Assembly (NCBI GenBank): GCA_029555965.1
Contig: JAKQHY010000081.1
Coordinates: forward strand, 1-64,000
Direction: 5' to 3'
Source: Chloroflexota bacterium
GTDB lineage: Bacteria; Chloroflexota; Anaerolineae; B4-G1; SLSP01
DNA length: 64,000 bases
Part shown: piece after piece, positions 47,881-51,278 of the stretch
Layout of the letters: each line of letters starts with the position of its first letter
How positions within the stretch are numbered: position 1 is the stretch's first letter
Position numbers and translations under genes: made by a program
Notes under the pieces: model-generated
Databases searched by the model: none
What the model was told of the DNA's origin: nothing
Seen by the model: only the letters and a program-made list of their open reading frames with translations

Positions 47881-48873
47881 TTAATCTTCCTCAATGCCCC
47901 ACCAGTACATATCCGCCAGTTTCCGATGTTCCTGGTGCAGGCGCACATAGCTCGCGTGGCGGTGATCGTCAATCGCGCCCTCCGCCAGGGCCGCGAGGAC
48001 GGCGCACCCCGGCTCGACCGTGTGGCTGCAATCGGAGAAGTCGCAGTGGGGGACGTAGGGCGCGATGTCGGGGAAGTAGGCGTCAATCTCCTCCGGGTCC
48101 AGGTCGAAGAGGGCGAGCGCGCGGATGCCGGGCGTATCGGCCACCCAGCCGCCGACGGCCAGCGGCGTCATCTCGGCGACGGTGGTGGCGTGGCGTCCCT
48201 TGCCGGTGACGCGGCTCACGTTCATCACCCGCTTGCCCAATCCCGGCTCTAGCGCGTTGAGCAGGCTTGTCTTGCCGACGCCTGACGGCCCGATCAACGC
48301 CGAGGTCTTGCCGCGCAGCCGCTCGCGCAGCGCATCAATGCCCGACTTCTGAGCGGCGCTGGTGTGAATAACCTCGTACCCGATGCGCTCGTAAACGGCG
48401 AACATGCGCCGGGCTTCCTCTTCGGTAATCAAATCCATTTTGTTGGCGCAGATCAAACTGGGGATTTCCTGGCGTTCCGCGCCGACCAACAGCCGATCCA
48501 GCATCTTCAAATGGGGCGCGGGGTTGGCGCAGGCGACGACAAACACCACCTGATCCGGGTTCGCCATGATGACCTGCTCCCGTTCGCGCAGATAGCCCTG
48601 CCGATCCCAGCGCCGCGATCCCCTCCCGGAGGCCAACGGCTTGAGCCGGGTCAACGCGCGCGTGCGCTCTTCTACATCCTCGATCACATTGCTGCCATCG
48701 GGAAGGTTTTCCCACTGCACGCGATCCCCGACGGCCACAATGGTGGCTTCCTGGCGTTCCTTCTTCAGCCGCCCGCGCAAATGCGCGACGATGGCTTGAC
48801 CGTCATCGGTCAGAATCGTGTAAAACCCGCTTTGCGACTTGATCACCAGCCCGGACTGCAAACTTTCCCCCAT
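47881..48873 (-). CDS. rsgA: Small ribosomal subunit biogenesis GTPase RsgA
   Basis: 330 residues from the ATG at 48871-48873 (CAGGAGG upstream; the longer frame is repeat sequence). OB-fold N-terminus (GLVIKSQSGFYTILTDDGQA), then a circularly permuted GTPase: G4 LICANKMDLITEEE before G1 ALIGPSGVGKTSLLNALEPG, G2/G3 ATTVAEMTPLAVGGWVADTP. The zinc motif of the C-terminal knuckle is HCDFSDCSHTVEPGC. All features of RsgA/YjeQ, which matures the 30S subunit with GTP. Good length. Confidence 0.95.
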   Translation of the reverse strand: MGESLQSGLVIKSQSGFYTILTDDGQAIVAHLRGRLKKERQEATIVAVGDRVQWENLPDGSNVIEDVEERTRALTRLKPLASGRGSRRWDRQGYLREREQVIMANPDQVVFVVACANPAPHLKMLDRLLVGAERQEIPSLICANKMDLITEEEARRMFAVYERIGYEVIHTSAAQKSGIDALRERLRGKTSALIGPSGVGKTSLLNALEPGLGKRVMNVSRVTGKGRHATTVAEMTPLAVGGWVADTPGIRALALFDLDPEEIDAYFPDIAPYVPHCDFSDCSHTVEPGCAVLAALAEGAIDDHRHASYVRLHQEHRKLADMYWWGIEED

Positions 48874-48906
48874 TCGCCTCCTGCGAGTGTTTTTTGGGAA
48901 ACTGGA

Positions 48907-48998
48907 AATGAGTAATGGGTAATGGGTAATGAGTGATGAGTAATGAGTGATGAGCGCCACTCTTTACTCATTTCTCATTTCTCCTTACTCATTTCTGA
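48907..48998. repeat. Intergenic repeat of atgagtaatg / catttctcat units
   Basis: Tandem aatgagtaatgggtaatggg-type units (48907-48953) face ttactcatttctcatttctc (48964-48995). Low-complexity spacer between rsgA and the ABC-F gene. Confidence 0.6.
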
Positions 48999-49030
48999 TT
49001 ACAGCTATTGTACCGGGTGAACCTACCCTG

Positions 49031-50731
49031 TCAATGCCTTTTATGTTCGGCGTAATAGGTGTAATCGCCTAAATATTCTGTCAGCGCGCCGTCTTCCAGT
49101 TCTACCACGCGCTCTACCACGCGGTTCAGGAAGTAGCGGTCGTGCGAGATGACCAGCACCGTCCCCTGGAAGTCGTCTATCGCCTGTTCCAGCACCTCGC
49201 AGGACGGCAGATCGAGATTGTTGGTCGGCTCGTCCAGCAGCAGGAAATTGGCGTCGGAGAGCATCAGCTTGGCGAGTTGCAAGCGGCTGCGCTCCCCGCC
49301 AGACAGCGTGGAGACGGTATCCCGTGCGCGCTCGTAGGGGAAGAGGAAGCGCCGCAGGAAGTTCACTGCTGCGTGTTCCGACATGGATTTGGCGTCCCAA
49401 ATGCTTTCGATCAGCGTGCGATTTGGGTCCAACGTCTGATGCTGCTGCGCGTAATATCCGATCCGCACGCTCGGCCCGACCTTGATGACGCCGTCCGTCG
49501 GCTCCTCCTGCCCCAGGATGCAGCGAAACAACACACTCTTGCCGCTGCCGTTGGCGCCGATCAACCCCACGCGCTCCCCATGCCACAACAGCAACTCCAA
49601 CCCCATCAACACAATCTTCTCCCCTTCTCCCTCTCTCCCTCTCTCCCCCTCGCCTTGTCTCCCCCTCTCCCCCTCGCCCGGAAACACCTTGTCCAAATCC
49701 ACAATCTCCAACACCTTATTCGACCCCCGCCAGCCGTTCAACTCCAACCCCATCTTCTCGCGCTCGAAAATCGGCTTCTCGATGATCTCGCCGTTCTTCT
49801 CCATCCGATCCAGCATCTTTTGGCGGGAGCGCGCCTGGCGGATGTGGCGCTCATCAATGACGATGCTCGCCCAATACTCGAAGCGCGCAATCGCGGCCTC
49901 GATGCGGGCGATTTCCTTCTGCTGCGCGGCGTACATCTGCTGCTGGCGCAGCAGGCGCAGTTGCTTGGTCGTGGCGTAGGCTGAGTAGTTTCCCTGGTAG
50001 ACCGTGATGTGGTGGTCTTCCAGTTCGGCAATGCCCTCCGCGACTTCGTCCAGCAGATAGCGGTCGTGCGAGACGATGATGACGGCGCCGGGGTAGGTGC
50101 GGATGAACGTTTCCAGTCGCGTCTTGCCCGCCAGGTCGAGGTGGTTGTCCGGCTCGTCGAGCAGCAGCAGATCGCACTGCATCGCCAGCAGCTTCGCCAG
50201 CCCCAACATCTTCTGCTGGCCGCCGGAAAGCACGCCGACCGACAGCTCGAAATCGCTTTCGGCGAAGCCGACGTTTTGGAGCGCCTGCTTGACGCGGCTC
50301 TCGTAGCGATAGCCGTCGCGCTGCTCAAACTCTTCCTGCGCGCGGGTGAGGGCGGCCATGGCGCGCGCGAGCTGCCGCTCGTCGTTGTAGACGGCGGGAT
50401 CGCCCAGGCGCGCTTCCAGGCGGCGCATCTCGGCCTCCAGGTGATGCAACTCGGCGTTGGCCGACAGCGCTTCCTCCCAGACCGTGCGGCTCGCATCCAG
50501 GTGAGGCGTCTGCGCCAGGTAGCCGACCTGAGCGACGCGCCGCGCGACGAAGCCCGCGTCGGCCTGCAATTCCCCGACGATGAGGCGCAGCAGCGTGGAC
50601 TTCCCCGCGCCGTTCGGTCCCACCAGCCCGATCTTCTGCCCGGCCTGAATCTCCCACGCGAGCTTGTCCAACACCCGTTGCGCGCCGTGGTAGAAGCTGA
50701 CTTTATCCACATTGACAATCACAGTACCCAT
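49031..50731 (-). CDS. ABC-F family ATPase (ribosome-associated or antibiotic-resistance type)
   Basis: 566 residues from the ATG at 50729-50731 (GGAGGAAGAT upstream). Two nucleotide-binding domains, no membrane part: NBD1 GLVGPNGAGKSTLLRLIVGE, LSGGQQKMLGLAK, LLLLDEPDNHLDL; linker of about 90 residues with a coiled-coil arm (RQQQMYAAQQKEIARIEAAI); NBD2 GLIGANGSGKSVLFRC, LSGGERSRLQLAK, LLLDEPTNNLDL. ABC-F proteins act on the ribosome E site. Near residues 350-369 an insertion rich in G, E and R (FPGEGERGRQGEGERGREGE) sits in the loop before the NBD2 Walker A strand; it matches an intergenic GA repeat. The upstream leader carries a uORF and a terminator, suggesting inducible expression as in macrolide/lincosamide resistance ABC-F genes. 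Confidence 0.9.
   Translation of the reverse strand: MGTVIVNVDKVSFYHGAQRVLDKLAWEIQAGQKIGLVGPNGAGKSTLLRLIVGELQADAGFVARRVAQVGYLAQTPHLDASRTVWEEALSANAELHHLEAEMRRLEARLGDPAVYNDERQLARAMAALTRAQEEFEQRDGYRYESRVKQALQNVGFAESDFELSVGVLSGGQQKMLGLAKLLAMQCDLLLLDEPDNHLDLAGKTRLETFIRTYPGAVIIVSHDRYLLDEVAEGIAELEDHHITVYQGNYSAYATTKQLRLLRQQQMYAAQQKEIARIEAAIARFEYWASIVIDERHIRQARSRQKMLDRMEKNGEIIEKPIFEREKMGLELNGWRGSNKVLEIVDLDKVFPGEGERGRQGEGERGREGEGEKIVLMGLELLLWHGERVGLIGANGSGKSVLFRCILGQEEPTDGVIKVGPSVRIGYYAQQHQTLDPNRTLIESIWDAKSMSEHAAVNFLRRFLFPYERARDTVSTLSGGERSRLQLAKLMLSDANFLLLDEPTNNLDLPSCEVLEQAIDDFQGTVLVISHDRYFLNRVVERVVELEDGALTEYLGDYTYYAEHKRH
49625..49685. repeat. GA-rich intergenic-type repeat inside the ABC-F coding sequence
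   Basis: ctctccctctctccccctcg and cttgtctccccctctccccc. On the minus strand it contains a 23-base stretch identical to the spacer repeat at 40525-40605. It is in frame and adds about 20 residues of G/E/R to a surface loop. Confidence 0.8.
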
Positions 50732-50817
50732 ATCTTCCTCCCTATGAAGACAGGGATTTGGGATTGGGGAGTGGGCATGACCCAATCCCTACTCCCTCAT
50801 TCCTAATCCCCTGATGA

Positions 50818-50853
50818 AATAAAAAGGCCGTGGGAGTTCTCGCTCCCACGGCC
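50818..50853 (-). terminator. Intrinsic terminator in the ABC-F leader (attenuator)
   Basis: Minus strand: ggccgtgggag (50853 to 50843), 6-base loop, ctcccacggcc (50836 to 50826), TTTTT and ATTT. An 11-bp perfect stem with T run, about 90 bases before the ABC-F start and downstream of the uORF. It would stop transcription before the gene unless unfolded. Confidence 0.85.
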
Positions 50854-50887
50854 CAGGAAGGGTGCTGCTGGCTATTAGAAAACAGAA

Positions 50888-50915
50888 AGCCGCAGGCGCG
50901 AGCGCGCCCACGGCT
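50888..50915 (-). promoter_or_regulatory. Second leader hairpin (possible antiterminator arm)
   Basis: Minus strand agccg-tg-ggcgcg-ct-cgcgcc-tg-cggct: a 5+6-bp stem. Its 5' arm, gccgtggg (50914 to 50907), is also exactly complementary to cccacggc (50834 to 50827) of the terminator, so the two structures exclude each other. Confidence 0.65.
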
Positions 50916-50961
50916 CTCAACGAACTAAACAAGTATAGATGTGACGGACGGGTTGTTCGCA

Positions 50962-50984
50962 GGCGCACCTAGAGACGGTGCGCC
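50962..50984 (-). promoter_or_regulatory. Hairpin overlapping the uORF stop codon
   Basis: Minus strand ggcgcacc (50984 to 50977) and ggtgcgcc (50969 to 50962) with the uORF TAG ending at 50969. A ribosome on the last codons would melt it. Its 3' arm, tgcgcc, can instead pair with ggcgcg of the second hairpin (50908 to 50903). Confidence 0.65.
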
Positions 50985-51046
50985 CCGCTGGACCCGATGA
51001 ATCCGTATATCCCGATGAACGTTTTGCCTAAACTGATCGTTAACAT
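50969..51046 (-). CDS. Leader peptide (uORF) of the ABC-F gene
   Basis: A 25-codon ORF from the ATG 51046-51044 to a TAG at 50971-50969, preceded by GAGGA five bases upstream and an extended -10 promoter 24 bases upstream. The peptide starts MLTISLGKTF, has two F-I-G units with IY between them (FIGIYGFIG), and ends GSSGAHRL. It is too short for ordinary gene finding. Known leaders of erm and ABC-F genes are of this size and stall ribosomes when a drug is bound; that this one does so is inference from its position over the first of three mutually exclusive hairpins. Confidence 0.6.
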   Translation of the reverse strand: MLTISLGKTFIGIYGFIGSSGAHRL

Positions 51047-51069
51047 TGTGTCCTCACTTGATGAACGGC

Positions 51070-51078
51070 ATTATACCA
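51070..51078 (-). promoter_or_regulatory. Extended -10 promoter of the ABC-F leader
   Basis: Minus strand TGGTATAAT: perfect TATAAT (51075 to 51070) with the TGn extension and no recognisable -35. Transcription would start near 51063, giving a leader of about 330 bases. It lies 26 bases from the end of MITE copy C. Confidence 0.6.
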
Positions 51079-51103: not shown

Positions 51104-51278
51104 CAGGGCTATTGCATTTCGAAAACTTCTTCCCGTCAAGCAGCCTGTTTTGCCGCTGAAGCGGCGTTTTTAAGGGGGGATTTTTGCGGCGGGGCGAAGC
51201 CCCGCCGCAAAAATCCCTTTTATCCCCGGCCTTTAGGCCGTATTCAGTTGCCGGACGTGATCAAATGCGATAGCCCTG
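51104..51278. mobile_element. Palindromic MITE-like element, copy C
   Basis: 175 bp. Ends cagggctattgcattt (51104-51119) and its inverted partner (aaatgcgatagccctg, 51263-51278) pair at 15 of 16. Core: gccgctgaagcggc (51152-51165), a long stem with gcggggcgaagccccgc (51178-51216) and cggcctttaggccg (51227-51240). The end sequence resembles copy B (cagggctttatcatt). No clear target duplication. Adjacent to the ABC-F leader promoter. Confidence 0.75.

Follow-up and report, generated by a model that had tools for sequence, protein, structure and literature searches.

A predicted ribosome-mediated attenuator in the leader of a Chloroflexota ABC-F gene, and related leaders upstream of resistance-type genes

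Most known cases of inducible resistance through ribosome-mediated attenuation come from Bacillota and Actinomycetota. The question raised by the present locus is whether control of this kind also acts in Chloroflexota, on an ABC-F ATPase gene encoded on the minus strand of the window (the whole 64,000-nucleotide stretch of DNA that was analysed). A preliminary description had read the leader of this gene as a ribosome-mediated attenuator built from an upstream open reading frame (uORF) and three hairpins. The leader is very probably a three-structure ribosome-mediated transcription attenuator and a member of a Chloroflexota-wide family found before resistance-type genes, a reading supported by the sequence elements, by their conservation and covariation, and by the gene context. 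The kind of regulation first proposed stands on the conservation of uORF, first hairpin and terminator, on covariation and on geometry, but the wiring had to be redrawn, with the predicted antiterminator now formed by the 3' arm of the first hairpin (H1) and the 5' arm of the first terminator (T1). The features of the locus are as follows.

51070..51078, minus strand: extended -10 TGGTATAAT (-10 TATAAT at 51075-51070), predicted transcript start at about 51063; from sequence
51051..51058, minus strand: Shine-Dalgarno (SD) site of the uORF, AGTGAGGA; from sequence, predicted anti-SD duplex -7.4 kcal/mol
50969..51046, minus strand: uORF of 25 codons, ATG to TAG, encoding MLTISLGKTFIGIYGFIGSSGAHRL and a stop; from sequence and conserved frame
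50984..50998, minus strand: predicted productive stall window, P-site codons 17-21 (IGSSG); from geometry
50962..50984, minus strand: H1, anti-antiterminator hairpin (segments 1:2) spanning the uORF stop; 5' arm 50984-50977, 3' arm 50969-50962
50957..50970, minus strand: antiterminator 5' strand, the H1 3' arm plus the next UGCG; 12-bp duplex with 50912-50901, -22.8 kcal/mol
50878..50916, minus strand: T1, intrinsic terminator; 5' arm 50916-50904, 3' arm 50899-50887, U-tract 50888-50878; from a terminator scan
50855..50861, minus strand: CCUUCCU, predicted to sequester the ABC-F SD site; pairing with 50743-50737, probability about 0.96 in the full leader
50838..50855, minus strand: relay segment, the T2 5' arm region, which can pair with a freed T1 3' arm (50903-50886); -26.9 kcal/mol, z -3.3 against shuffles
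50817..50854, minus strand: T2, second intrinsic terminator; stem 50854-50825, U-tract 50825-50817; from a terminator scan
50737..50743, minus strand: SD site of the ABC-F gene; from sequence and predicted pairing
49031..50731, minus strand: ABC-F ATPase, the regulated gene, 566 aa (P0001); from NCBIfam and Pfam

The upstream part of the leader reads as the preliminary description had it, with the extended -10 at 51078-51070, the 25-codon uORF at 51046-50969 behind a good SD site (51058-51051), and a hairpin across the uORF stop (H1, 50984-50962, GGCGCACC-GTCTCTA-GGTGCGCC) whose 3' arm is complementary to, and can pair with, the second hairpin. The two downstream hairpins are also real, but their roles had in part been read wrongly. 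Hairpin 2 (50916-50887) is not merely a switch element, as it has its own U-tract (TTTCTGTTTTC, 50888-50878) and scores as a terminator, T1; the terminator further downstream (stem 50854-50825) is not the conserved one but a lineage-specific second terminator, T2. A consensus scan found no good candidate for a -35 box at the window promoter, and of 13 leaders from the window family and the groups nearest to it, 10 have the TG-extended -10. The minimum free energy of the window leader is -141 kcal/mol, against -107.8 (sd 5.5) in shuffles (z = -6.0), and the terminator scan returned two terminators on the minus strand of the leader, compared with 0.9 in shuffles for both strands together. A long perfect GC-rich inverted repeat (window 51175-51225, GGGATTTTTGCGGCGGGG-CTTC-GCCCCGCCGCAAAAATCCC) separates the divergent gene from the promoter.

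The switch that these elements could form is set out here as a prediction, which extends to the arrest, the drug behind it, antitermination, switch kinetics and the relay. Without inducer, the 25-codon uORF would be completed and H1 (1:2) would re-form, retaining its 3' arm; with H1 formed, T1 (3:4) would form and RNA polymerase would stop about 150 nt upstream of the ABC-F gene. T2 (5:6) would catch polymerases that pass T1, and the ABC-F SD site would also be sequestered. A ribosome arrested with one of codons 17-21 in the P-site would cover the 5' arm of H1 and leave the 3' arm free, such that segment 2 could pair with the emerging segment 3 as the antiterminator and prevent T1. The T1 3' arm so freed (segment 4) could in turn pair with the T2 5' arm (segment 5), and the ABC-F protein would be expressed. 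The arrest would most likely come from an antibiotic at the peptidyl transferase centre or the exit tunnel. The predicted folds also make a translational layer of control likely, through sequestration of the ABC-F SD site, of the kind found in vmlR and cplR.

In folds of the window leader and in pairing tests across leaders, the antiterminator and H1 are mutually exclusive. If a ribosome at codon 19 hides the 5' arm of H1, the pairing of lowest energy is 2:3 for as long as segment 4 has yet to be transcribed. When the ribosome is modelled at codon 7 instead, H1 stays intact and termination follows. Once fully transcribed, T1 is favoured over the antiterminator by 11 kcal/mol, or by 4.6 kcal/mol with the relay, and because T1 wins at equilibrium the switch would have to be kinetic, by trapping. 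The same 1:2, 2:3, 3:4 logic, with segment 1 masked by the ribosome, underlies the trp-type attenuator of E. coli; the window leader differs from it in having no regulatory codon run, in its resistance-type targets, and in the extra segments 5 and 6.

The position of the ribosome is tightly constrained in this scheme, as codons 17-21 are the sole P-site positions from which a ribosome reaching to +16 hides the 5' arm of H1 and spares the 3' arm. Arrest at the uORF stop codon was considered and rejected for the window, since both arms of H1 would then lie under the ribosome, leaving T1 to form. An amino-acid attenuator was likewise rejected, the uORFs being without any amino-acid codon run. Two measures, both taken from eight groups of gap-free uORFs with the H1 region left out, bear on translation. 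The ratio pN/pS is 0.69 in the window family (six leaders, common pattern G-[KQE]-[STN]...G-[VF]-[VI]) and 0.30-0.60 in the seven other groups, and changes at codon positions 1, 2 and 3 number 491, 371 and 667 across the eight groups. The range of pN/pS (0.30-0.69) and the third-position excess together indicate that the uORF frame is under selection as coding sequence, and fixed frame lengths with pN/pS below 1 in all eight groups suggest that the uORF is translated.

When the predicted stall window is placed by the geometry of each leader, [AGST][SCF] stands at its start in 18 of 46 leaders, compared with about 4% at other offsets. Many leaders have Ala, Ser or Thr at this point and some have Gly or Cys, the residues including RIAS-W, RKAS-N, LLAS-S, QAS-I, GVVAS, GVVSF and FIGS-S. 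Chloramphenicol and linezolid arrest ribosomes when the penultimate residue is Ala or, less so, Ser or Thr (PMC8987054), and the motif may offer a lead towards a drug class of the phenicol/oxazolidinone type. A further property of the uORFs is that 32 of 51 are predicted to be leaderless, with 6-9 nt from -10 to ATG, no SD site and a mean SD energy of -1.4 kcal/mol, where transcript starts were taken from the -10 only. In the other 19 leaders, the window's included, the distance from -10 to start is 15-29 nt and an SD site is present (mean -7.3).

Conservation was assessed by collecting ABC-F orthologs from the family, the class and a species-level genome collection and reading their upstream regions. 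Promoter, uORF, H1 and T1 are present together in 51 Anaerolineae ABC-F leaders, and the element is absent upstream of some tens of other ABC-F orthologs; one genome occurs in two collections (L019 and L030, at least one such pair) and was counted once in groupings. In the window family (L001, L010, L011, L012, L017, L021), the uORF has 25 codons in 6 of 6 leaders. Whereas uORF, H1 and T1 are conserved, T2 is confined to some lineages: it is present in L012, L021 and some distant leaders, and elsewhere is replaced by a degenerate hairpin or by none. T1 is the conserved terminator: nearly every relative has it, including many that lack T2.

Covariation follows the same elements. In an alignment of 23 leaders (A1), 89.8% of T1 cells pair, with both-side changes at 7 of 10 pairs (24 cells), and the covariation score is reached by none of 500 shuffles. 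For the antiterminator, pair counting by fixed MAFFT columns gave 73.4% paired against 73.3% in shuffles, yet above all slid versions, a result that probably reflects out-of-register arms and short-stem families, and alignment-free tests of own against regrouped partners were used in its place. In these, the two H1 arms of a leader fit each other better than they fit arms exchanged between groups (matched in 10 of 20000 regroupings), and the pairing of H1 3' arm with T1 5' arm in ABC-F leaders has an own mean of -17.3 kcal/mol against -14.9 (sd 0.55) when regrouped (1 of 20000). The antiterminator test gave the same count, 1 of 20000, when repeated in 44 separate, later-found leaders; leaders within groups share kinship, and the permutation counts are to be read as support and not as strict probabilities. 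Examples of matched arms are GCGUCCAC with GUGGACGC (L084) and GUACCCGGC with GCCGAGGUAC (L099). With regard to the relay, the T1 3' arm scores a z below -1.64 against the downstream region in 24 of the 40 leaders having a long downstream region, and in L015, L016, L018 and L019 its partner is a non-terminator hairpin before the ABC-F SD site. Because in leaders with copied arms the duplication by itself would give such a signal, the relay is put forward only as a suggestion. A conserved linker motif (TTATGTAAAGT, TTATGTCAA or TTATGTAAACT) lies 14-16 nt past the H1 3' arm and before T1 in L013, L016, L035, L084, L099 and others, and is missing from the window family; it is possibly an RNA polymerase pause.

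The presence of two terminators invites other readings of the wiring. Hairpin 2 might be a switch element only, with T2 as the single controlled terminator, released when hairpin 2 pairs with the T2 3' arm (3:6). As had been pointed out, GCCGTGGG (50914-50907) in the hairpin 2 5' arm and CCCACGGC (50834-50827) in the T2 3' arm are perfectly complementary over 8 bp, a match that reaches 10 bp in a suboptimal fold, and T2 has the better U-tract. The complementarity is exact because the arms of T1 and T2 are near-identical, however, and the 3:6 pairing is a by-product of duplicated arms. Hairpin 2 moreover has its own U-tract and occurs in essentially all relatives, many without a T2 to control, and its 5' arm, once taken by the H1 3' arm, would be unavailable to T2, all of which makes this wiring highly improbable. 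Marginally less credible still is that the terminators are constitutive, a tandem pair that insulates or lowers ABC-F expression beside a fortuitous uORF. Both are strong and thermodynamically dominant, as such a pair would be, but they lie downstream of the same transcript's conserved promoter, and the uORF frame, H1 and the antiterminator pairing are conserved and coevolving.

A more serious competitor, though one we consider unlikely, retains the attenuator and changes its signal: the leader would report general translation stress, through any slowing of ribosomes (a block in initiation, a shortage of tRNA), and not a particular antibiotic class. The wide variation of uORF peptides between families would fit a sensor of this sort, as would leaders in which the SD site itself forms H1, where any ribosome near the start would induce. 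The lack of amino-acid codon runs nevertheless speaks against an amino-acid leader, and peptide conservation within families, together with [AGST][SCF] at the predicted P-site, points to arrest that depends on the nascent chain. A riboswitch, T-box or other known RNA was also considered and set aside, with no Rfam match at the gathering score and, in E-value mode, chance matches mostly to microRNA models.

The preferred reading, an attenuator that responds to drug-arrested ribosomes, gains a wider setting from covariance searches. A model built from the ABC-F leaders (R1) has matches in 85 of 296 Anaerolineae genomes, and a second model (R2) in 50 of 350 Chloroflexota genomes, including classes besides Anaerolineae. 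The targets of R1 other than ABC-F genes are DrrA-type ATPases, ABC-2 permeases, MsbA-like exporters, Acetyltransf_9 and other GNAT acetyltransferases, and MFS pumps, and R2 matches precede the same kinds of gene. One MFS pump downstream of the element is related to Mef(A). Nearly all targets are thus export, acetyltransferase or ribosome-protection genes, as classed by Pfam/NCBIfam in a sample and by eye in the others; a minority of weaker matches (for example L202, L216, L218, L225) have no clear downstream gene. Leaders of genes other than ABC-F also have a uORF and a T1-like terminator, often in tandem, together with a block around AGUGCGCC. They represent a second architecture, in which the SD region of the uORF itself supplies the 5' arm of H1, and SD and block coevolve (0 of 20000 regroupings; GGACGCAC:GUGCGUCC, AUGGGCAU:AUGCCCAU and GCGCACUAC:GUAGUGCGC are examples). 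We lean, if only slightly, towards a single antibiotic-sensing attenuator family across a Chloroflexota resistance regulon of ABC-F proteins, DrrA- and MsbA-type exporters, MFS pumps and GNAT acetyltransferases. Its members would be built in two ways, with H1 either placed late in a uORF that is often leaderless or made from the uORF SD. They would have an arrest motif in common, and some lineages would add a six-segment relay by which one stalled ribosome frees two terminators.

The window's own leader was missed by R1 at E 0.001, probably due to the long linker of the window family. R2 did find it, at first by aligning T2 to the 3' arm of T1 and then as H1-T1 at E 0.09. At R2 E < 0.01 the window genome has two leaders only, that of the window and that of an ABC-F paralog on contig 132. 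The latter (L002, R2 E 0.002) has a uORF, MIVMLHALSYCGRMASLFH and a stop, and a terminator, with H1 and the antiterminator less distinct.

Rfam has no match in the window or in 18 loci, and no paper on a Chloroflexota attenuator of this type was found in the open-access literature, in agreement with the lack of precedent that the preliminary description had assumed. Attenuators of similar logic control vmlR (PMC9226507), msrD (PMC10314930) and cplR (PMC10201436). The leader of vmlR in Bacillus subtilis shares with the window an ABC-F target, a uORF, an anti-antiterminator, an antiterminator, an intrinsic terminator and an SD-sequestering hairpin, but its uORF has 3 codons within SL-1 with arrest at initiation, whereas the window uORF has 25 codons with predicted late arrest; the window also has two terminators and a possible relay, and no sequence relation to vmlR (PMC9226507). 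Upstream of msrD, another ABC-F gene, arrest on a leader peptide (MsrDL, 6 residues as against 25 codons) prevents an intrinsic terminator, as predicted for the window; the ribosome there covers the terminator's first half, whereas in the window it would cover H1, one step upstream (PMC10314930). Transcriptional and translational attenuation of an ABC-F gene, predicted for the window, are combined in cplR of Clostridioides difficile, but with two hairpins, a 3-codon uORF and a terminator that itself sequesters the SD site (PMC10201436). Homology of the window leader to those of vmlR and cplR found no backing in an Rfam match, and the uORFs are unrelated to their 3-codon ones. The mechanism is therefore of a known kind, and to our knowledge the RNA family, its host phylum, the dual architecture, the leaderless sensors and the tandem terminators are new.

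A phylum-wide family, if real, would mean that the largely uncultured Chloroflexota sense ribosome-targeting compounds, and dozens of exporters, acetyltransferases and ABC-F proteins that are still uncharacterised could be picked out as likely resistance genes by their leader alone. For context-dependent drug action, leaderless sensor uORFs in which the arrest motif is conserved would also be a useful model.

For the window ABC-F itself, P0001 scores 440 bits against NCBIfam NF000355 ('ribosomal protection-like ABC-F', cut-off 380), the only one passed; it falls below the cut-offs of EttA and Uup and of the named resistance families Vga, Msr, Lsa, Sal, OptrA and CplR. Pfam ABC_tran and ABC_tran_Xtn match the protein, its PDB relatives YheS, EttA, VmlR, Uup and PoxtA have similar scores, and it has relatives in Chloroflexi/Anaerolineae MAGs. 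The protein may act in ribosome protection. The contig-132 paralog is the second full-length ABC-F match in the window genome, with 41% identity. At the start of the second ATPase domain of the window protein is a low-complexity GEGERGRQGEGERGREGEGE insert (window 49610-49680) encoded by a purine repeat. Downstream of the gene and on the same strand lies an ORF named by eye as an RsgA-type ribosome-associated GTPase (window 47881-48960), and in another class an R2 match (L241) lies upstream of an RsgA-like ORF. Both intergenic regions flanking the ABC-F gene (50745-50810 and 48880-49000) contain imperfect inverted or short direct repeats (GGGATTAGG.., ACTCATTACTCATCACTCATT), and a similar repeat occurs in the leader of the contig-132 paralog.
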